Shown one piece after another: positions 42,134 to 50,598 of a stretch of 64,000 nucleotides of DNA. How positions within the stretch are numbered: position 1 is the first letter of the stretch; each line of letters starts with the position of its first letter. Under the pieces are notes generated by a model. The model did no database searches. It saw nothing but the letters and a program-made list of their open reading frames with translations, and was not told where the DNA came from. This stretch comes from Pleomorphomonas sp. T1.2MG-36 (lineage in GTDB: Bacteria > Pseudomonadota > Alphaproteobacteria > Rhizobiales > Pleomorphomonadaceae): assembly GCF_950100655.1 (NCBI RefSeq), contig NZ_CATNLY010000045.1:186001-250000 (forward strand), given 5' to 3'. The position numbers and the translations under genes are program-made.

Positions 42134-42151
42134 TGGTGGAGCTAAGCGGGA
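42134..42151. repeat. attL core (18-bp direct repeat)
   Basis: The sequence TGGTGGAGCTAAGCGGGA is identical to 50523-50540, the 3' end of tRNA-Ala read on the plus strand. The flanking bases differ on both sides, so 18 bp is the exact core. Confidence 0.93.
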
Positions 42152-42213
42152 ACTCTGTTTGCAGACCGTCGAATGGCGGAGTTCCGGAATTTGTGGACAA
42201 ACCCAATGGTTTA

Positions 42214-42247
42214 GGGTACGCACTAGGGGTACGCAGCGGGGTACGCA
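42214..42247 (+). repeat. Left integrase arm-site array (three GGGTACGCA repeats)
   Basis: Copies of GGGTACGCA start at 42214, 42227 and 42239. The 34-bp block matches 50427-50460 at 30 of 34 positions and lies 62 bp from the core, as on the right. The layout fits arm-type binding sites of a lambda-like integrase. It also shows that codons here are not part of the integrase gene, supporting the ATG at 42258. Confidence 0.85.
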
Positions 42248-42257
42248 GAGGCTCCAA

Positions 42258-43661
42258 ATGGCCCAATCGGCATCTACTGAAACGCGCTTTCTCGAAATGC
42301 ACTCTGGGAAGTGGCGAGTAGTTGTCTCAGTTCCCCGCAGCCTTCAGCCCAAGCTCGGAACCAAGCTCAAGCGCTCCCTTGACACCGACAGTCTTGCCAT
42401 CGCCAACGCACTTAAGTGGCGAGTTGTCGCAGAGTTGAAAGCAATTATTGCGGAAGCGCAGGGCGAGAAATCTGATCTTCGCGAGGCCCGGACGCGGGCG
42501 GCCCTCAACATCCTGAAGCGTCGCCGCGCTATAATAGACCCCTTGGAGTTGAACGAGATTGCTGACGAGACGGCGCATGTTGCCGCCGAGCTGCTTGGCG
42601 ATCCGATCGGGACCGAAGCGGGACCGGACGGGGAACTTCAAGAGGTCTTCGATCCCTCTCGGGAAGCTATGGCGAACAGCTTCTTTGACGTGGCGAGCGG
42701 TAGGGCGGTGCCGATCGACCTTTATCGGCCCGACTATCTGTCGCAGCTCAAAGTCAAGCCCAGGACCCGCGCCGACGATAAGCGTGCTGTCGTTCTCCTC
42801 GCCGACTGGTGTAGGACCAACAGCATTCCCGCAACGCTTCAGGCTATCACTAGGAAGGTCGCTATGCGCTTCGTTGATGCCATGACCAACGCCGGAAATG
42901 GCCGGAATCCGGTCACCATGAAGAAGTACTTCAGCCGGCTTTCGATTTATTGGCAATGGCTGCTTCAGCGCGAACATGTCGAGCTTAATCCTTGGCAGGG
43001 CATCAAACGGCCAACTGACACAAGCCCACATGATGAGAAGGAGCGTCCGTTCACTCGCGAGGAGATGATGGCTCTTCTCAACGGTCCCGCCTCGGCGGCA
43101 ATGCACGATTTGATGCGCATCGGAGCGCTGACAGGTGCTCGGCTCGACGCCGTTGTCTCCCTGACGGTAAAGGACTGTCGGGATGGCCTGTTCCTGTTCA
43201 AACCTCAAAAGAAGGAGCCAGCACCGAGAGTCGTTCCCATCCATTCCAGCCTTCTCGGGATCGTAGCGGCTCGTGTCGCCGGCAAATCGGAGGGCGATGA
43301 TCTTTTCCCCGAGTGGCCACCGCCGAAGTCGTCTATGTCCCTGCGCGAAAGGTCCTTCAAGGCGTCAAACGCGTTTACAGCTTACCGTCGCAGCATAGGG
43401 GTTGATGACTGCGTGGCAGGCAAGCGGCGGTCTTTGGTGAACTTCCATTCATTCCGTCGCTGGTTCATCACGGAAGCCGAGCGGGCGGGTCAACCGGAAC
43501 ATATCATTGCCGCCGTGGTCGGCCACAAGCGGCAGGGAATGACGCTCGGACGATATTCGAGTGGGCCGGCCATTGAGCAGGCAAGGGTATGTGTCGAGGC
43601 TGTCAGATTGCCGGAAGGGAACGAGCTGGCCACCGTGGCTGGTTCGGCCACCAGTCATTGA
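42258..43661 (+). CDS. Tyrosine-type site-specific integrase of the tRNA-Ala element
   Basis: The 467-residue protein is a phage-type integrase. The N-terminal part has a SAM-like core-binding region (about 180-265), and the catalytic domain carries Arg295 (TGARLDAVVSL), a Lys in KPQKKEPAP, His397 and Arg400 (HSFRRWF), His423 (VVGHKRQG) and nucleophile Tyr433 (LGRYSSG). The frame is open from 42159, but the first 33 codons cover the arm-site repeats (they read GTQRGTQR), so ATG 42258 is preferred. It recombines attP with the 3' end of tRNA-Ala. It is not related closely to XerC. Confidence 0.92.
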   Translation: MAQSASTETRFLEMHSGKWRVVVSVPRSLQPKLGTKLKRSLDTDSLAIANALKWRVVAELKAIIAEAQGEKSDLREARTRAALNILKRRRAIIDPLELNEIADETAHVAAELLGDPIGTEAGPDGELQEVFDPSREAMANSFFDVASGRAVPIDLYRPDYLSQLKVKPRTRADDKRAVVLLADWCRTNSIPATLQAITRKVAMRFVDAMTNAGNGRNPVTMKKYFSRLSIYWQWLLQREHVELNPWQGIKRPTDTSPHDEKERPFTREEMMALLNGPASAAMHDLMRIGALTGARLDAVVSLTVKDCRDGLFLFKPQKKEPAPRVVPIHSSLLGIVAARVAGKSEGDDLFPEWPPPKSSMSLRERSFKASNAFTAYRRSIGVDDCVAGKRRSLVNFHSFRRWFITEAERAGQPEHIIAAVVGHKRQGMTLGRYSSGPAIEQARVCVEAVRLPEGNELATVAGSATSH

Positions 43662-43813
43662 ATCCCGACTAAGCCAAGGGTCGCTCATCCGAAAAGCCAT
43701 ATACGTGACAGCGGATCGGGATTTCCCCCCGGCCGCATTCTAGGAATTCCCTGCTATCCTCGCCCATCCTGCGGCATTTGTCCGGGATGGCGGATTAAGG
43801 AGAAGCGAGGCAA

Positions 43814-44245
43814 ATGGAAACCATCCTTCTCACGTCCCTGACATCCATCTTGGCTGCGCTGATCGCCGCAGGAGTTACCTCCATACTGACCCGCCGAAGA
43901 GAGCACGAGGCCGAGTGGAGGAAGCTGAAGCACGCCTGTTATCAGGAGTACATCTCAGCCATGTCGGAGATCGTCGAAGGACGCTCGACGGTGGAGGCTC
44001 AGCGCCGATTCGCCAACGCGGTTAACGGCCTGATACTTGTTGCCCCCGAGGATGTCCTCCTAGCCAGAGATGCATTCTTGAGAGAAAATTCTGTGCGGAA
44101 CCCATCTCGTTCCCAATCCGAGCATGATCGTCTTCTCAATGTTCTTCTCCGGGCGATGCGGCAGGATATTCACAAGAAAGCCCGAGTCTCAGAGGCCTAT
44201 GAGTTCTATTTGCAAGCGCCGCCACCAGGAACGCCACCGTCCTGA
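43814..44245 (+). CDS. Membrane-anchored hypothetical protein
   Basis: The 143-residue protein has one N-terminal membrane helix (ILLTSLTSILAALIAAGVTS, residues 4-23), a positive RRRE stop, and a helical cytoplasmic part. EHEAEWRKLKHACYQEYISAM and FANAVNGLILVAPEDVLLARDAF are segments I have seen in widespread hypothetical proteins of the same plan. GGAG precedes the ATG. No catalytic motif is visible and the function is unknown. Confidence 0.7.
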   Translation: METILLTSLTSILAALIAAGVTSILTRRREHEAEWRKLKHACYQEYISAMSEIVEGRSTVEAQRRFANAVNGLILVAPEDVLLARDAFLRENSVRNPSRSQSEHDRLLNVLLRAMRQDIHKKARVSEAYEFYLQAPPPGTPPS

Positions 44246-44319
44246 AGAGAGCTGGTAGTAAGCGCCCAGTCGCCCAATAGACCCTGCCTCAATGGACGTG
44301 TCCGACCGCAGCCGAAGTG

Positions 44320-44351
44320 TGTCCAAAAGAATGGCATTGACATTTTGGACA
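44320..44351. promoter_or_regulatory. Inverted repeat TGTCCAAAA-N14-TTTTGGACA, possible recombinase site
   Basis: Perfect 9-bp arms at 44320-44328 and 44343-44351 lie 51 bp before the serine recombinase start. Resolvase subsites are about 28-34 bp inverted repeats with TGTC-type ends, often just upstream of the resolvase gene. Other GGAC/GTCC words occur nearby (44294-44303 and 44382-44386) and could be further subsites. It could instead be an operator for another regulator. Confidence 0.5.
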
Positions 44352-44401
44352 TATAGGAGTCCGATGGTCTTGACCCTATTGGACGTCTCGGAGCATCCGC
44401 C

Positions 44402-44980
44402 ATGCTGATTGGATACGCCAGAACCTCAACCACCGAACAAGAAGCCGGCCTTGAAGCCCAGCTTAGGGACCTCAAAGTAGCGGGATGTGAAGAGGTCTAT
44501 TCAGAACAGGTCTCATCCATCGAAGCCACGCGGCCGGAGCTTGAAGCCGCCATCAAATTCACTCGCAAAGGTGACACGTTGGTGGTGACAAAGCTGGACC
44601 GCCTCGTGCGCTCGACGCTCCGCTTATGGACCATCGTTGAGGAGTTGGAGCGAAAGGGCGTCGGCCTCCGCATCCTCAATCTCGGTGGCGAACTGGTTGA
44701 CACCAAGTCGGCAACGGGCAAGCTCCTCCTCAATGTCTTCGCCGGCTTCGCTCAGTTTGAACGCGAGATGATGCTGGAGCGGCAGCGCGAGGGCATCGCC
44801 AAGGCCAAGGCTGAGGGCAAATACAAAGGACGAAAGCCGAGCGCCCGCCTTAAGGCCGGTGAGGTCCGGTCCATGTCGGCGGCCGGAAAGACCCCCACTG
44901 AGATCGCCAAGGCCTTAGGGATCGGCCGTGGAAGTGTCTATCGGGCGCTGGTGAAGGACGCCAACTCGGCGGCGGAATAG
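44402..44980 (+). CDS. Serine recombinase (resolvase/invertase family)
   Basis: The 192-residue protein is a small serine recombinase. The N-terminus MLIGYARTSTTEQ has the nucleophile Ser9. VVTKLDRLVRSTLRLW holds the conserved active-site arginines, and GKLLLNVFAGFAQFEREMMLERQREGIAKAKAEGKYKGR is the dimer and hinge region. The C-terminal helix-turn-helix is KTPTEIAKALGIGRGSVYRAL. Such enzymes resolve dimers or invert DNA. Within this element it may resolve multimers of an excised circle. A perfect inverted repeat upstream is a candidate site. Confidence 0.93.
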   Translation: MLIGYARTSTTEQEAGLEAQLRDLKVAGCEEVYSEQVSSIEATRPELEAAIKFTRKGDTLVVTKLDRLVRSTLRLWTIVEELERKGVGLRILNLGGELVDTKSATGKLLLNVFAGFAQFEREMMLERQREGIAKAKAEGKYKGRKPSARLKAGEVRSMSAAGKTPTEIAKALGIGRGSVYRALVKDANSAAE

Positions 44981-45004
44981 CTAAGGAGCAAGCGCGGCAA
45001 CTAC

Positions 45005-45523
45005 CTATCGCGGAAGATAAGATAGTACGTCGTTCCCTTGGTTCATCCGCTCTGCCATCCGGATGCAGGTAGGAATCTGACCGCAAGCCGTCATTGCCGC
45101 CCGTTGGGCCTGCGCCTCAACCGTCTGCTGTGCTTCCGTGCTTTCCCAGATCAAGGCCAACCCGATGCCAAGCAGCAAAATGACGGGATATCCGTATTGC
45201 CTAGCCCACAGCCTGGCGCGACCCTCCCACAGCTTACCATAAGGGCTATCCATGAGGATAAGCATCAAGCTGCCACTCATTACGGTTGCGGCAAGGCCAA
45301 ACCAACCGAACCACCAGGGAAGCTCTGGTGAGAGCCAAGCAATGCAGCGCGTCACGCCAATGACCAAAATAAGCGCCAAGCCCCAGATGATCGCATAGAA
45401 GGCGATCTGTTCAAACAGGCCTCGCATCGCCTCAGTACCGGGATCGGTTAGGTTTTGATTGCGCTTGGCCTCCGAGGCATACAATTTCCGCCAAAGTAGT
45501 GCTTCAGGCTGGTCCTCAGACAT
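45005..45523 (-). CDS. Three-helix membrane protein, unknown function
   Basis: The 172-residue product has predicted membrane helices near residues 42-64, 70-92 and 111-126. The N-terminus is polar (MSEDQPEALLWRKLYASEAKR). The C-terminal tail has two cysteines (MTACGQIPTCIRMAERMNQG). I do not recognise the family. It lies 48 bases downstream of another membrane-protein gene on the same strand, so the two are probably one operon. Confidence 0.65.
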   Translation of the reverse strand: MSEDQPEALLWRKLYASEAKRNQNLTDPGTEAMRGLFEQIAFYAIIWGLALILVIGVTRCIAWLSPELPWWFGWFGLAATVMSGSLMLILMDSPYGKLWEGRARLWARQYGYPVILLLGIGLALIWESTEAQQTVEAQAQRAAMTACGQIPTCIRMAERMNQGNDVLSYLPR

Positions 45524-45571
45524 TTTGGAATGCCCCTATTCGCGCCAGAGCAAAAGACCGTCGATAGCAAT

Positions 45572-45859
45572 CTATTTCCCCGCAGCCCGGTTTCCCAAAT
45601 GAGCTTTGACCTTCAAGAACAGCCATGTCGGCATCAGCGCCAATATCGTAATGCCGATACCATAGCCCAAGAGCTGGCCAATTTGATTAGCGGTGCCCAG
45701 TGGGTCGGGAGCCAAAACGCCACGCACCGTGCTGACAAACAACGCCAGTATACAAAATGCCACGGCTGCGGATGTGATCCGCTGAAGCTGCAAGAAGGCA
45801 AAGCCGAGGACAATGACAACGGCGCCGGCAACTGCCCAATGGGTCCAAAGCGGCTGCAT
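45572..45859 (-). CDS. Small three-helix membrane protein, unknown function
   Basis: The 95-residue protein has three hydrophobic stretches (about 8-24, 31-47, 62-83) and short polar ends. GGGGAA lies seven bases before the ATG. It is the first gene of a two-gene minus-strand operon with the 172-residue membrane protein. No motif of a known family was seen. The paired small membrane proteins could form a holin-like, toxin-like or transport unit, but nothing in the sequence decides this. Confidence 0.6.
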   Translation of the reverse strand: MQPLWTHWAVAGAVVIVLGFAFLQLQRITSAAVAFCILALFVSTVRGVLAPDPLGTANQIGQLLGYGIGITILALMPTWLFLKVKAHLGNRAAGK

Positions 45860-46259
45860 TTTAGCATTCCCCGAAGTCAGGTGCCTGCGGTGCGCCCCCG
45901 CAAGCGTGCTCCATGACTCTGGTGATCGGGGAGTTGGAAAACCGACCGAGGGCGGTCCCCGTGGCCTTTAGTTCGGAGAACCTGGACATACGCCACAGGC
46001 TCCCCGACCATAGGTCGAGGATTGGCGGCATTTCCGGTTGCCGCCCTTACCACTCGGTAGGGGTTTCCACGCCCCAGAGCGCTGCGTCTGCGCTCCAAAA
46101 CCATCATAGAGGGGGAGGTCGGGACTTGTCACCTCCACTGAAGTGATTAATCTTTTTGAGCTTCGAACTTCTGGTGGCTGCCGAATTAGGGTGGAAGCTG
46201 AGGAAGCGCCGTGGCAAAACCGGTAGCGCCAGTTTGAAGCTCTCTGCTTCTGAAGTCTT
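45860..46259 (-). other. Gene-free divergent region with at least five stem-loops
   Basis: The region separates divergent genes. Between 45944 and 46136 there are five inverted repeats: 45944-45957, 46002-46020, 46024-46045 (perfect 7-bp stem), 46060-46075 and 46114-46136. The second pairs completely only as minus-strand RNA, where its C-A mismatch becomes a U-G pair, so a structured minus-strand RNA, perhaps the leader of the 95-residue membrane protein gene, is plausible. A 76-codon minus-strand frame here (45877-46107) has no coding features. Confidence 0.45.
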
Positions 46260-47033
46260 ATGACCGATCCCTATCAGACCTTTATCAAAAGCAAGAAGCG
46301 CGGCGAGGACATCCGGCGCCGTGCAGCCGACCCCGAAGGATTCGAGGCCCGTTGCGTCATTCCGGGTTGCGGACAGCCGACCATGCGAGCCGAAGGCACT
46401 GGGCTCGCCGCCTTCCATTGCAAACGTCATGTCGACCATAAGGCTCGCCATGGTAGCCACTGGCACGGCACCTACAGGGCGGCCGACATTGCGCCTTACC
46501 GCAAGGCTGCCGATAGGTGGCTCAAGGCCAACGCCGCTGACAGCGCGGTGGTTTCGGCAGTCGGCGCTCTCCGTGGCCTTCTCGACGGCTCCGGCCCCTT
46601 CACGCCCTCCACCTCGCTCCGGGGCCTCCCAGTTCGCGACAGGGCACGCATCGCCTTCGTGCGGCTCGCAAGGGCAGAAATCAAACCGGAAACCATCCTC
46701 GCAATCCACCTAGCCATGTCCGCTTTGATCGAGGAAGACCCCGGCTCGCATCGGGTCCGTGAGTTCCGCGTCGTGCAGGTGGCGAAGGCAGTCCACCGGC
46801 TGGCTTCGGGCTATCACAGGAAATGGGAATTCGAGGGAGCGGACGGCAAGACGAGGGCGACCGAACTGCACGGCTACGCAAGGTCGACTGGAAGAGTCTT
46901 GCGGCTCATCGGCGAGGAAATCGATAGGGCTTGCGAGATGTTGGCGGCGGACCATATGGCCGATGTGATGGCACTGAAGGTCGAGCGCTACGGGACGCAT
47001 CCGAGGAAGCCGCAGGGACCGGCTGATCGTTGA
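46260..47033 (+). CDS. Hypothetical protein with N-terminal Cys/His-rich motif
   Basis: The 257-residue protein has a possible zinc-binding segment near residues 32-68 (CVIPGCG, then HCKRHVDHKARHGSHWH). A helical region follows with LRGLPVRDRARIAFVRLARAEIKP and a basic C-terminus (YHRKWEFEGADGKTRATELHGYARSTGRVLR). Such proteins recur in alphaproteobacterial mobile elements without assigned function, in my recollection. A DNA-binding role is plausible but unproven. The ribosome site is weak (TGAAG). Confidence 0.65.
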   Translation: MTDPYQTFIKSKKRGEDIRRRAADPEGFEARCVIPGCGQPTMRAEGTGLAAFHCKRHVDHKARHGSHWHGTYRAADIAPYRKAADRWLKANAADSAVVSAVGALRGLLDGSGPFTPSTSLRGLPVRDRARIAFVRLARAEIKPETILAIHLAMSALIEEDPGSHRVREFRVVQVAKAVHRLASGYHRKWEFEGADGKTRATELHGYARSTGRVLRLIGEEIDRACEMLAADHMADVMALKVERYGTHPRKPQGPADR

Positions 47034-47386
47034 TCGGTGTTAGGGCGACGCCATTCAAGCAGATGGTGCCACTTTCCCGAGAGATAAGGCGAGGCCGAGC
47101 GGTCCGTACAGATTGGGGTGCTGTTCGTGCGCCTATGGCACATGCAAAAGCAAATCTGCGCTCCCTATGGTTGTTGGCCTTACTCCGTCGGAGAAAATGA
47201 AGCGCAAATATGCTATACTTCACGGTGTCGCTTGTAGCTATGACCACGAGCGAGCAGCTGGCACAGTCCAAAAGGATTGACCCGTCGCGCTGCGATCTTT
47301 GGCAAGTGAGCCCAACAAGCTAAACCGCGTGTCCAATCGGCCTGGACTCGTGGCTTCACCCCTAGGCCGAACAATAGGTATCAATA
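47034..47386. other. Gene-free interval inside the element
   Basis: Between the Cys/His-rich protein gene and the RNase H-like gene I see no coding frame and no strong hairpin or repeat. The composition becomes less GC-rich from about 47150 on, consistent with acquired DNA. Confidence 0.4.
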
Positions 47387-47872
47387 TTGAGTAGTTCGCC
47401 TACCGACAACATAGTTGCGTCATGTCGTCACCAAGCCATTCTTTACATGCAGGCCAACAAAGGTCCTCATTATGGAGTTGTGTGGTGGGAACTAGAGATT
47501 GATGGCGTGGTTTCTGGGTTAAACAGATCCAAGATTACCTCAGAGATGCCTCTCACCGACGCCCCAGACGAACTGTATGCTGCCGCGCTTCTGGACGCGT
47601 TGAGTTTTGTTCCTCCAAATTCGGATGTAAGGCTCTTTAACGACTATGAAGCGTTCCACGGCGCATTCTCAAAGGACTTCCTCATCAAGTGGGAGAGAGA
47701 GAATTTCAAGGGACGCCCTATCTGGCGTGAAGTGTCTCGTTGCTTGAACGAGAACCACATCACCGTAGGCCGGAGCAAAGCCGAAAAAGGCTCGCCAGAC
47801 TTGAAACGTCTGAAAGCTCTTCAAGCCCCTCAAATCGGCTTCAACGGCTTCAACGGGAAAGATGCCGCCTAA
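47387..47872 (+). CDS. RNase H-fold protein, probably lacking one catalytic Asp
   Basis: The 161-residue protein can be aligned by eye with bacterial RNase HI. AILYMQANKGPHYGVVWWEL corresponds to the first strands, DELYAAALLDAL (Glu62) to the helix with the second catalytic acid, VRLFNDYEAF (Asp86) to the strand with the third, and IKWERENFKGRPIWREVSRCL to the helix-loop before the last strand. The first catalytic Asp position appears to be Gln22. The start is TTG 47387; ATG 47447 would cut off the first strand. Codon use is less GC-rich than neighbours. The activity is unproven. Confidence 0.5.
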   Translation: MSSSPTDNIVASCRHQAILYMQANKGPHYGVVWWELEIDGVVSGLNRSKITSEMPLTDAPDELYAAALLDALSFVPPNSDVRLFNDYEAFHGAFSKDFLIKWERENFKGRPIWREVSRCLNENHITVGRSKAEKGSPDLKRLKALQAPQIGFNGFNGKDAA

Positions 47873-48216
47873 GCCCATGACTGCGGTTGTGGCATTTGTA
47901 CCGCTAACCCACATCGTTGATGTGACGCCCCTGTTAGTCAGTGACCGAGCAGGGTGATCCGGATGACGGCATGATCGAATGCAGTCTTCCGTGAGGCATT
48001 TCAAACTCGCTGCGTACTCGCGCCCTGTTGGGGTCTAGCCCTTTGAATGCCGCTATTCCGCTCTGCCGTCATGGCCTGAGCGATACCGTTTTCCGTGGCA
48101 GATCGCCTTGCGTGGTTTTGCAGGGGCTCCTCACGTATGTTGACTCTCCGAGAGGTTGGCTGCCGTTGGTGGTCGACCTCTCGGTTGCCCTCTTCCCATG
48201 AGCCGCACTTTCCACC
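47873..48216. other. Gene-free interval inside the element
   Basis: No gene is supported here. A minus-strand frame from 48004 overlaps the RNase H-like gene and is antisense to it. No strong terminator or repeat was found. Confidence 0.4.
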
Positions 48217-49545
48217 ATGCCTCATCACCGCACCGCCGATAACTCCGATGTCGCTAGCTTGGAGGATATCTCCGAGTGGGCGAGCATGTTTGACCCGTGG
48301 CTGGCTTTGCGCAGTCCCGAGGCCAGCGATGGCCACCTCCATCCGCTTGTTGGACATCTCATTGCTGAAATAACCTCTATGGAACGGCGGAAGCGCAGTC
48401 GCTCCAGCAGCATGGAGGACGGCTTGCGGCTTGGCATCGAGAGCGTCACGGCGAATCTCGTTCGGGCCGCGCTCTACCAGCCAGAGGGAAAGCTCCTCGT
48501 CCTCCTGGCGCGACCGACAGACAAGCAAAGCCGATACGACCGGCCGGGCTTCCGAAAGCTGAGGGAGTGGCTCCTCACCCTAGAAACCTTGGGCTACGTC
48601 GAGGTCCGTGCGTCTAGAAAGATCGGCGTTGCCAGCCATGTTGTTGTAACCGGGAAGTTCTGTTCCCTGCTGGATCAGGCGTCGATAGCAGCCACGGATA
48701 GGGACCTTCAGAGGCTTGACGGGTGGGAGTTAGTTATCCTCCGCCGCAACGTGAGACTGCGGCCAGGTGGCGTCAAGTTCGGCCAGAATCTCGATTATGT
48801 GGACACCGCCGAGACCCGAAAATTCCGTGAGGAACTGGTCATGATCAACCGGTGGCTCAGGAACGCCGACATCGGTTTCTTCGGTAATGTCGCAGTAGAC
48901 CTTACGCGAAAGACCCTGCACCGCTCTTTCATCCTCCCGCCATTCATAGAGACCGACCGAGCCATCTTCGATTACGGTGGCCGGCTTGGCGGTGGCTGGT
49001 GGATGTCGCTGCCAAAGGCCGAACGGCGGTTTATCAGGATCGACGGCGAGGACCAGATTTCCGACCTCGATTTTTCCTCAATGTTCGTCCGCTTAGCGCT
49101 GCATTCCGTCGGCGCCCCGTTGCCAGATGGAGACCTCTACGGCGCCATTCCGGGAGTTGAGACGGAAGAACATCGACAGGCGGTAAAGACCGTCGTTCTC
49201 AACCTCCTCGGTCGCTCAAGTCCGTTGGCGAAGTTGCCGGCGGGTGTTGGTCCCGGCCTGCCGCCTCAGCTGCGTTCCGCCGTAGCCGTCCGGTCGGCCA
49301 TTCTCAACAGCATCCCCGGCCTTGAAGCCGCCGTTGAGCGTGGCCTTTGCTACAGCCTGTTCCGGACGGAGAGCAACATTTTGGTCCGCGCTCTGTTGAA
49401 GCTGACGGCACTGAATATCACCGGGCTAGGCATGCACGACGGCATCATGGTCGCCGCGTCAAGGGCCGAGCTAGCCAAGGCGGCGCTTCAGGAAGCCGCT
49501 CGCGAAGAGATTGGTGTTGAGTTGCCAGTCGTCCGCAAAATGTGA
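48217..49545 (+). CDS. Putative single-subunit polymerase-like protein (palm motifs A, B, C)
   Basis: The 442-residue protein has a C-terminal half that resembles family A / T7-type polymerases. The block FDYGGRLGGGWWMSLPK (251-267) leads into DLDFSSMFVRLAL (Asp285, like motif A), then Arg320-x3-Lys324 with VVLNLLGRSS (like motif B), and GMHDGIMVA (His407-Asp408, like motif C HDE or HDSF). The N-terminal half (1-230) is helical with a possible winged-helix segment (REWLLTLETLGYVEVRASRK). I recall hypothetical proteins with GGRFYGGWW and DYSGLH blocks in other mobile elements. Polymerase activity is inference. Confidence 0.5.
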   Translation: MPHHRTADNSDVASLEDISEWASMFDPWLALRSPEASDGHLHPLVGHLIAEITSMERRKRSRSSSMEDGLRLGIESVTANLVRAALYQPEGKLLVLLARPTDKQSRYDRPGFRKLREWLLTLETLGYVEVRASRKIGVASHVVVTGKFCSLLDQASIAATDRDLQRLDGWELVILRRNVRLRPGGVKFGQNLDYVDTAETRKFREELVMINRWLRNADIGFFGNVAVDLTRKTLHRSFILPPFIETDRAIFDYGGRLGGGWWMSLPKAERRFIRIDGEDQISDLDFSSMFVRLALHSVGAPLPDGDLYGAIPGVETEEHRQAVKTVVLNLLGRSSPLAKLPAGVGPGLPPQLRSAVAVRSAILNSIPGLEAAVERGLCYSLFRTESNILVRALLKLTALNITGLGMHDGIMVAASRAELAKAALQEAAREEIGVELPVVRKM

Positions 49546-49805
49546 ACTCCGAGGGGTGCGCTTATCTGGCTTCTAAAGGGGTTTCCCTCTCGGTATATAG
49601 AGAAGTCTTTGCCAGTTATCCTCTCAACATCAACGCGTTAAGGGCTATTCAAGGCCGTCCTCAGGCCGCCCGCACGGATCATTTCGAGCCCTGCTAGAGG
49701 CCCCCGTGCACCGTTCTGAGGGAGGAGGTGGTGAAAGGAGAATAGACCATCTCTATCCATCCCCTCCCGCTGAGAGACACCCCGGATGGTCACATCAAGC
49801 GCATC

Positions 49806-49845
49806 CCATGCCAACATCGAGCCTGCCATCAAGAGAGCGGCATGG
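49806..49845. repeat. Dyad 1: CCATGCC-N26-GGCATGG
   Basis: Seven-base arms at 49806-49812 and 49839-49845. The interior has ACATCG near the left arm and AAGA near the right, shared with the second dyad at 49913. Confidence 0.6.
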
Positions 49846-49912
49846 CCTTATGAACCACATGGTCGACTTGAAGTCTCCTTCATGCACCTTTGCTCACTAC
49901 CAAGGAGGGCCA

Positions 49913-49949
49913 CCATGCCGGACATCGGGTGGCACTAAGATCGGCATGG
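49913..49949. repeat. Dyad 2: CCATGCC-N23-GGCATGG
   Basis: Arms at 49913-49919 and 49943-49949 are identical to those of dyad 1, and the interior again has ACATCG-G and AAGA. The module is therefore duplicated, about 105 bp apart. Confidence 0.6.
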
Positions 49950-50426
49950 TGCATGGCTGTGGACTTAGGGGGAGTGAGGAGGAATGAGGGCAACCTCTCC
50001 TATGGTCCCAAGACCTAAGGGTCTGACATGGAGGTGTCCGGGAGAATGCCTTGAGGTATGCCCTGGCGCCCTGCCCCAGCAAGACCGAGGAGAGGCATGA
50101 GGTGAGCTGAGGAAGAGCACCAAGTGAGCATGAAGCCGATGACTTCAAGTCTATGCTTCAAGTGTCCAGCATGCCCCATGAAGCGCCGCCCTTGATGGGG
50201 AGGGAGATGCAAGAGCATCGAATAGGACATATCCCCAAAGCGCATGGTGCCAACCCAATGCCACCGCCAAGCTCTTCCGACTGTCCTTAGGGTCTACGAC
50301 TGCCGAGAGGGTCGGCTTGTTGCCTGCCTCTGGTACCCTAGCGATGAGACTTTGGGCTTCCGCGTAAGGGCGGGGCTCGGCGGTCTTTTCGGCTGCCGAA
50401 ACGGCGCCTCGAATGTGTGGACCACG

Positions 50427-50460
50427 GGGTACGCAATTAGGGTACGCGGCGGGGTACGCA
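50427..50460 (+). repeat. Right integrase arm-site array (three repeats)
   Basis: GGGTACGCA, GGGTACGCG and GGGTACGCA start at 50427, 50440 and 50452, with the same 13- and 12-bp spacing and the same orientation as the left array. The distance to the core is 62 bp, equal to that on the left. Confidence 0.85.
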
Positions 50461-50522
50461 CGCAATCTAACCTTCAGCCTAAGGCCTTGATTTAGCTTCT
50501 ATATTATCGAAGAAAAGAAAAT

Positions 50523-50540
50523 TGGTGGAGCTAAGCGGGA
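50523..50540. repeat. attR core (18-bp direct repeat within tRNA-Ala)
   Basis: Identical to 42134-42151 and forming the 3' end of the tRNA gene including CCA. This keeps a functional tRNA after integration. Confidence 0.93.
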
Positions 50541-50598
50541 TCGAACCGCTGACCTCCTGCATGCCATGCAGGCGCTCTCCCAGCTGAGCTATAGCCCC
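50523..50598 (-). tRNA. tRNA-Ala (anticodon GGC)
   Basis: The minus strand folds into a full cloverleaf of 76 nt with encoded CCA. The acceptor pairs GGGGCTA with TAGCTCC (one G-U), and the D arm contains GCTCAGCTGGGAGAGC. The anticodon arm CCTGC-ATGGCAT-GCAGG gives anticodon GGC, and the T arm has GGTTCGATCC. It reads GCC/GCU alanine codons. The last 18 bases are the attachment site of the element, which lies downstream and leaves the tRNA intact. Confidence 0.97.

Follow-up and report, generated by a model that had tools for sequence, protein, structure and literature searches.

The integrase of phage lambda (Int) has N-terminal arm-binding, core-binding and catalytic domains, and acts on attachment (att) DNA in which arm sites flank the core and IHF bends the DNA between them (PMC4880445). 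Predicted arm-type sites in direct orientation have been described in the attP of the mycobacteriophages Pixie, L5 and Giles, with two direct arm sites on one side of the Pixie core and three on the other; the same work proposed that, in related phages, changes of arm motif are accompanied by changes in N-terminal residues (PMC3203893). The rhizobial integrase IntS of ICEMlSymR7A has five arm motifs, TGKTGGTATC, all of which are needed for efficient integration (PMC11963761). KplE1 IntS represses its own gene, the promoter of which overlaps the attL region at a tRNA (PMC2951348). Here, we describe an element at a tRNA-Ala gene of Pleomorphomonas sp. T1.2MG-36, contained in a 64,000-nucleotide stretch of contig NZ_CATNLY010000045.1 (positions 186,001 to 250,000; hereafter the window, in whose numbering all positions are given). 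On the sequence evidence set out below, it is very probably a mobile element with a lambda Int-like tyrosine integrase, the DUF6538 domain of which binds GGGTACGC repeats at both ends of the element as arm-type sites.

Element boundaries and paired repeat arrays

The element is 8.4 kb in size, is inserted at tRNA-Ala(GGC) and is bounded by two identical copies of the 18-bp core TGGTGGAGCTAAGCGGGA, the right copy being the final 18 bases of the tRNA gene (Table 1). A genus mate (G013) provides the empty site: the joined flanks align with it as one contiguous 1517-bp stretch at 85% identity. Measured over 1 kb at a time, G+C content is ~53–62% inside the element, versus ~64–68% clear of it on both sides.

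Exactly 62 bp from the core at each end lies a 34-bp block of three GGGTACGCA repeats, spaced by steps of 13 then 12 bp and all pointing in the same direction. The blocks are identical at 30 of 34 positions, and the middle copy of the right block ends in G. Both the bounding repeat at tRNA-Ala and the blocks, with their spacing, direction and identity, had been given in a preliminary description of the sequence and proved exact. The same description called the arrays perfectly mirrored, which holds for their distance from the core but not for their orientation, as the two blocks are direct copies of each other rather than inverted ones. Single near-matches to GGGTACGCA are not rare (14 in the window at up to one mismatch, against 10.9 expected), so the signal rests on the arrangement. 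When all ungapped 34-bp pairs were compared within the element, identity of at least 26/34 was reached on one diagonal only, that of the array pair. Across the whole genome (5,198,610 bp), the triplet pattern was found only at the two ends of the element, and a reversed-pattern control gave no occurrence.

Arrays in relatives at tRNA-Ala and at other sites

A search for relatives of the integrase returned 19 loci, 15 of which (L020–L034) encode proteins at 50–56% identity; by eye, an array directly precedes int in all 15. Three further loci (L035, L036 and L038) were left out of the array reading. Both ends were readable in 13 of the 15, and in a Shinella element with a 37%-identical integrase (L037), and same-direction arrays were present at both. 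Including the window, arm-type sites therefore appear, by sequence, to flank the core at both ends of 15/15 readable tRNA-Ala elements. The preliminary description had read the arrays as arm sites and named as the contrary case related elements with the same integrase but without conserved repeats at these positions. The relatives support its reading, and the contrary case was not encountered among them.

The tRNA-Ala core was sought in 16 genomes and found in 15, with both an integrase-side and a tRNA-side copy in 14 (on one contig in nine, on two contigs in five). One genome (G074) has the tRNA-side copy only, without an array, and two (G063 and G065) have a third core copy; that of G063 (L068) has no array, and that of G065 lay outside the array reading. 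Measured to the 7-base unit, the distance between core and array is 59–62 bp on the left in 13 of the 14 relatives (54 bp in G075) and 64–66 bp on the right in 12, the right arrays of G060 and G067 being mis-registered by the scan. As this best-triplet scan mis-registered some arrays and failed on those two right arms, a two-arm comparison was used instead. The motif is alike within each element and different between elements: GGGTACGC in the window, GGGTACT in most Rhizobium elements, GGGACT in G067 and TTGGTCTGA in Shinella. In a Bradyrhizobium genome (G070, L031) the tRNA-Ala core is absent and a GGGTACGC array adjoins a different core-like sequence, so arm and core specificity may part.

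The two-arm comparison covered 31 elements, 15 at tRNA-Ala and 16 at other sites. For the latter, 40 regions were fetched, picked mostly by E-value from places with DUF6538, some at contig ends being skipped. With L119 left out, 39 were read, and a candidate distal copy of the core was found in 17. One of these (L149) was dropped, its 14-bp match lying in the repeat itself; the other 22 regions, in which the distal copy was not in range, were uninformative. L026 and L031, whose distal ends were not read, stood outside the comparison. Within an element, the two arms agreed better in the same direction than as reverse complements in 29/31 cases (means 18.2 versus 13.5 of 22). Among the 16 elements outside tRNA-Ala, the same direction was better in 14, with one tie and one loss (means 16.6 versus 13.5), and arms taken from different elements of this group gave a mean of 13.5.

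In genome G010 (L080, ~1417–1500) a right end is 92% identical to window positions 50440–50522, an integrase relative was not detected and the DNA further in has no match to the element of the window; we report this as an apparently truncated or replaced element. In another genus mate (L071), a different arm-like pair, two copies of TTGGTCGGAA, was seen by eye beside the same tRNA-Ala gene. The difference from the window arrays suggests that the site may serve elements with different arm specificities.

The integrase N-terminus as candidate arm reader

The catalytic domain of the integrase was recognized as Phage_integrase (PF00589; 29.4 bits against a cut-off of 27.1). Residues R295, K318, H397, R400 and Y433 are invariant, and H423 nearly so, in 60 sequences; we take these six to be the catalytic R..K..HxxR..H..Y set. 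The N-terminal Pfam domain is DUF6538, and DUF4102, the domain of IntSXT/P4-type island integrases, was not found in the protein by Pfam up to E 0.1. The predicted N-terminus has strands at residues 12–15, 18–24 and 36–43 and a helix at 46–68. This matches the layout of three strands plus a helix given for arm-binding domains (PMC8138268, available in part), and we accordingly count DUF6538 as a putative domain of that kind. Full-length lambda Int chains (1z1g, 1z1b and 5j0n) can be aligned to the predicted model over 310–314 residues, starting from model residue 2 or 4; with a chain that lacks the arm-binding domain, the alignment covers 245 residues.

Variation between integrases points in the same direction. 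The comparison used 42 of the 77 integrases, namely those that had a 330-aa frame and two or more motif hits with scores of at least 5. Similarity of the motif correlated with similarity of DUF6538 once the rest of the protein was removed (partial r 0.257, p 0.0005). The converse correlation, with the rest of the protein after removal of DUF6538, was 0.022 (p 0.38). This asymmetry suggests that DUF6538 is the domain that reads the arms. The arrays had been said to define a clear integrase specificity; the claim stands as a statistical association, while actual binding is a prediction from sequence. Ancestry confounds the associations seen between single alignment columns and motif bases (for example, V22 of the window integrase with motif base 7), which serve as leads only.

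Occurrence across DUF6538 integrases

DUF6538 was found in 70/150 sampled genomes of the order (66 above the curated cut-off) and in 60/249 of the phylum (53 above it). The protein searches with the integrase and with o442 (Table 1) scored the ~8,000 candidates sharing most words, and the integrase search retained 936 proteins at E ≤ 0.001. We read 57 DUF6538 loci (30 + 27). A complete tRNA or tmRNA gene, its 3′ end facing int, lies within ~200 bp upstream of the DUF6538 start in 41/57. A direct pair of 9-mers matching at 8/9 or better lies just upstream of int in 36/57, compared with 14 for inverted pairs, three inside the gene and four further upstream. Motif finding in 77 upstream regions returned TG[GCT]TACACA, which is near TGNTACACA and often recurs in steps of 12–13, with a log-likelihood of 124.5 against 16–25 in shuffled sequences.

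Two weaker integrase relatives (L004 and L005) gave a first impression of lacking arrays, which was revised on reading further upstream. This by-eye reading gave a GTTGTGGTCAG triplet for L164, a pair for L007 and a degenerate array for L163. Upstream of the L163 integrase, a triplet near TTGGGGCGCA was also seen by eye upstream of a TGGCTGGGGGACCTGGA core; it may be the distal arm of an adjoining element in tandem.

The geometry had been considered unusual for its kind. This is not supported: direct upstream repeats accompany 36 of the 57 integrases, and same-direction arms flanking a core are described for Pixie, L5 and Giles in the available portion of PMC3203893. The layout is common among DUF6538 integrases, not an oddity. 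The att structure is real, its worth lies in the family-wide rule that it exposes, and the new part is the family-wide assignment of arm arrays to DUF6538 integrases.

Proposed att site and alternatives

We propose that the C-terminal domains of the integrase would cut and join the 18-bp core, and that the N-terminal DUF6538 would bind the GGGTACGC repeats as arm-type sites, an IHF-like protein bending the DNA between core and arms to bring the two together. In the integrated state, attL and attR would each keep one three-site arm. In the excised circle, the core of attP would have an array 62 bp away on either side, and all six sites would point the same way. As the left array stops 10 bp short of the int start codon, arm binding would probably repress int as well.

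The gaps between core and arms were scored against WATCAANNNNTTR, which we take to be the IHF consensus. Across the 31 elements, sites with at most one mismatch were present in 52% of int-side and 42% of distal gaps, the rates in mononucleotide-shuffled gaps being 8% and 7%. With up to two mismatches allowed, the best int-side match is placed 30 bp from the core in 13 of the 15 tRNA-Ala elements. The best distal match has this same spacing, in the opposite orientation, in nine of the 15, including the window, where it is perfect. The bends thus look mirrored and the arms direct.

More tentatively, DUF6538 integrases may form a class with a two-faced attP, in which both arms are P′-like and point the same way and the N-terminal domain follows a readable code for variants of TGNTACACA; this is possible, though we would not yet favour it. 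Each arm unit would consist of the core, 30 bp, an IHF bend and an array of two or three sites. Such an attP would lack a separate P arm on which a classical Xis switch could act, and direction might be set, for example, by Int autoregulation via the left array or by an unrecognized factor.

A number of observations weigh against assigning the arrays to DUF6538 as arm sites. The tRNA-Ala elements are homologous and hence not independent, and the pairing of ends is inferred in the five of 14 relatives whose ends lie on different contigs. The first repeat of the G067 right arm is degenerate. In the two-arm comparison, L118 scored higher when reverse-complemented, L126 was tied, and the two orientations barely differ in L147, L124 and L148. 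A strong direct pair is absent from 21/57 DUF6538 loci, and most loci do not show three clear copies: 4/30 scored 20 or higher out of 24 for a triplet (0/30 controls). The family motif scores 1.62 per sequence against 0.85 in a far-upstream control, so that the score is partly nonspecific, and matches are absent in L182, L185, L149 and L006, the last of which has its own GGGTAGC triplet. The IHF-like site in the left gap of the window is weak, with two mismatches. The lambda Int alignments have a large rmsd (13.7–16.3) and put the N-terminal part, searched within the full-length model, to little test, and shared ancestry can inflate the partial correlation. Finally, the idea that the elements share only Int failed: a serine resolvase is also present in 9/9 complete tRNA-Ala elements, and shared gene content is thus not enough to single out Int.

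The strongest alternative, which we nevertheless regard as unlikely, is that a recombination directionality factor or another element-coded regulator binds the arrays and Int uses other arm sites. The left array directly precedes int, and in the portion of PMC11963761 available, the ICEMlSymR7A factor RdfS is described as binding attP where a putative arm site lies, so factors of this type can occupy the same stretch. Against this, no common regulator emerged from the nine complete elements (ORFs, open reading frames, of at least 50 aa; BLASTP at 1e-5). Apart from two groups of ORFs opposite the integrase gene, the only families present in 9/9 are those of the integrase and the serine resolvase, and motif similarity follows the integrase N-terminus. 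It is improbable that one array is functional and the other a relic of an earlier insertion or duplication: tandem remains may exist, as at L163, but the arms share one motif in the same direction in 29/31 elements even though the motif varies between elements.

Binding of the arrays by the small serine resolvase of the element is more improbable still. The resolvase accompanies all nine complete elements, and its own binding site is not established, since a palindrome upstream of its gene is clear in the window only (4/100 shuffles reach it) and the best inverted repeats of eight relatives are matched by 25–96 of 100 shuffles. The by-eye idea that each resolvase has its own palindromic site was dropped for the same reason. 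However, motif similarity again follows the integrase, and tblastn with the window resolvase gave no match in L114, L124, L128 and L139, which have two-ended arrays, although a distant resolvase could escape such a search. Functionless chance repeats, for which the frequency of lone GGGTACGCA near-matches might speak, can be set aside on the 34-bp diagonal test and the genome-wide uniqueness of triplets that keep their position across elements.

Other features of the element

The features of the element are collected in Table 1. Eight ORFs were scanned, and the negative results that follow apply to these. No relaxase, type IV secretion or virion gene scored above cut-off. A T4SS_pilin match to the 95-aa ORF fell below it (E 0.0084, 16.6 of 26.6 bits). 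The element thus shows neither the relaxase and type IV secretion genes of its own that would mark an integrative and conjugative element nor, in PHROGs, the structural and packaging genes of a prophage. Besides the integrase and the resolvase, only o442 had a PHROGs match, to a single family of unknown function. Among the eight ORFs, no excisionase family scored above the Pfam or NCBIfam cut-off; a PHROGs excisionase match to the C-terminal part of the resolvase was weak (E 0.074). The constant presence of the resolvase in complete elements suggests a circular or replicating stage in which multimers are resolved.

Table 1. Features of the tRNA-Ala element, in window coordinates
Feature	Position	Strand	Remarks
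Left core, 18-bp copy of tRNA-Ala 3′ end	42134..42151	+	identical to 50523-50540
Left arm array, GGGTACGCA at 42214, 42227 and 42239	42214..42247	+	stops 10 bp short of integrase ATG; relatives have arrays here too
Tyrosine integrase, 467 aa	42258..43661	+	DUF6538 residues 12-67, Phage_integrase 269-433 (Pfam, predicted model)
143-aa ORF	43814..44245	+	no Pfam match above cut-off
Palindrome TGTCCAAAA...TTTTGGACA upstream of resolvase gene, possible res-like site	44320..44351	+	9/10 paired
Small serine resolvase/invertase, 192 aa	44402..44980	+	Pfam Resolvase, 1.5e-40
172-aa ORF	45005..45523	-	no Pfam match above cut-off
95-aa ORF	45572..45859	-	no Pfam match above cut-off
Conserved intergenic block	45883..46095	.	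better folding than in shuffled sequence; recurs on many alphaproteobacterial plasmids
o257, 257-aa ORF	46260..47033	+	no Pfam match; homologue in 4/9 complete elements including that of the window
161-aa ORF	47387..47872	+	no Pfam match above cut-off
o442, 442-aa protein	48217..49545	+	family A DNA polymerase-like predicted fold
Right arm array, GGGTACGCA at 50427, GGGTACGCG at 50440, GGGTACGCA at 50452	50427..50460	+	
IHF-like site AATCAAGGCCTTA, 30 bp from core	50480..50492	-	0 mismatches to WATCAANNNNTTR
Right core, inside tRNA gene	50523..50540	+	
tRNA-Ala(GGC), integration target	50523..50598	-	

The predicted fold of o442 had family A DNA polymerases as all of its 50 best-ranked Foldseek matches, at modest TM-scores of 0.23–0.32. 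The protein carries the motifs DLDFSSMF and MHDGIMV, occurs in 5/9 complete tRNA-Ala elements and has homologues that are mostly unnamed or hypothetical.

The conserved intergenic block is 75–82% identical in at least six sister elements among the matches listed, above the ~66–69% identity of their int genes. It folds better than shuffled sequence, with z-scores of −3.1 (plus) and −5.4 (minus) as RNA and about −2.9 on both strands as DNA, and shows slight pair covariation; Rfam gave no match up to E 0.5. It matched 197 of 72,556 plasmid records, 161 of them typed as conjugative, and two of 50,697 phage records. No annotated gene lay under the plasmid matches listed, in a gene table that is incomplete. 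On pAt the block precedes ParB-like, antirestriction and DUF932 genes, on Afipia pOC167 toprim/DUF1419/DUF3085 genes, and in Ketogulonicigenium repA-parA; the remaining contexts read were less clear. The block is a candidate single-stranded-DNA promoter, like Frpo (PMC11541004, available in part), or a structured RNA. If it is the former, movement of the element as single-stranded DNA would be suggested.

Relation to known systems

Our literature search, which left subscription journals and bioRxiv mostly outside, returned no paper naming DUF6538. Nor did the sources, in the portions available, describe DUF6538 as an arm-binding domain, its shared motif or this att layout for its family. The assignment proposed here gives a domain of unknown function a testable role, and the arrays give a rule by which the two ends of such an element can be located even where no genome with the empty site is available. 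Natural pairs in which the arm motif and the N-terminal domain co-vary form a data set on how integrases read arm sites, and the family data could be used for defining short attP sites for integration tools.

By analogy, the element would share with lambda Int and its attP the same domain plan and the same arm–IHF–core layout. In lambda, however, the two arms are unlike in sites and factors, H1, H2 and the Xis sites lying in one arm and H′ in the other. The element has a three-site array on both sides at equal distance, and the IHF-like sites of its relatives are often mirrored. ICEMlSymR7A IntS differs in having five sites, another motif and a known dedicated directionality factor, RdfS, and KplE1 likewise has a known directionality factor, TorI, as far as the available portions of those reports go. 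The direct arms of Pixie, L5 and Giles are nearer in orientation, but in the part of that account at hand Pixie has a sixth, inverted site, L5 has additional sites and equal spacing on the two sides is not mentioned, and the hosts are unrelated to that of the element described here.

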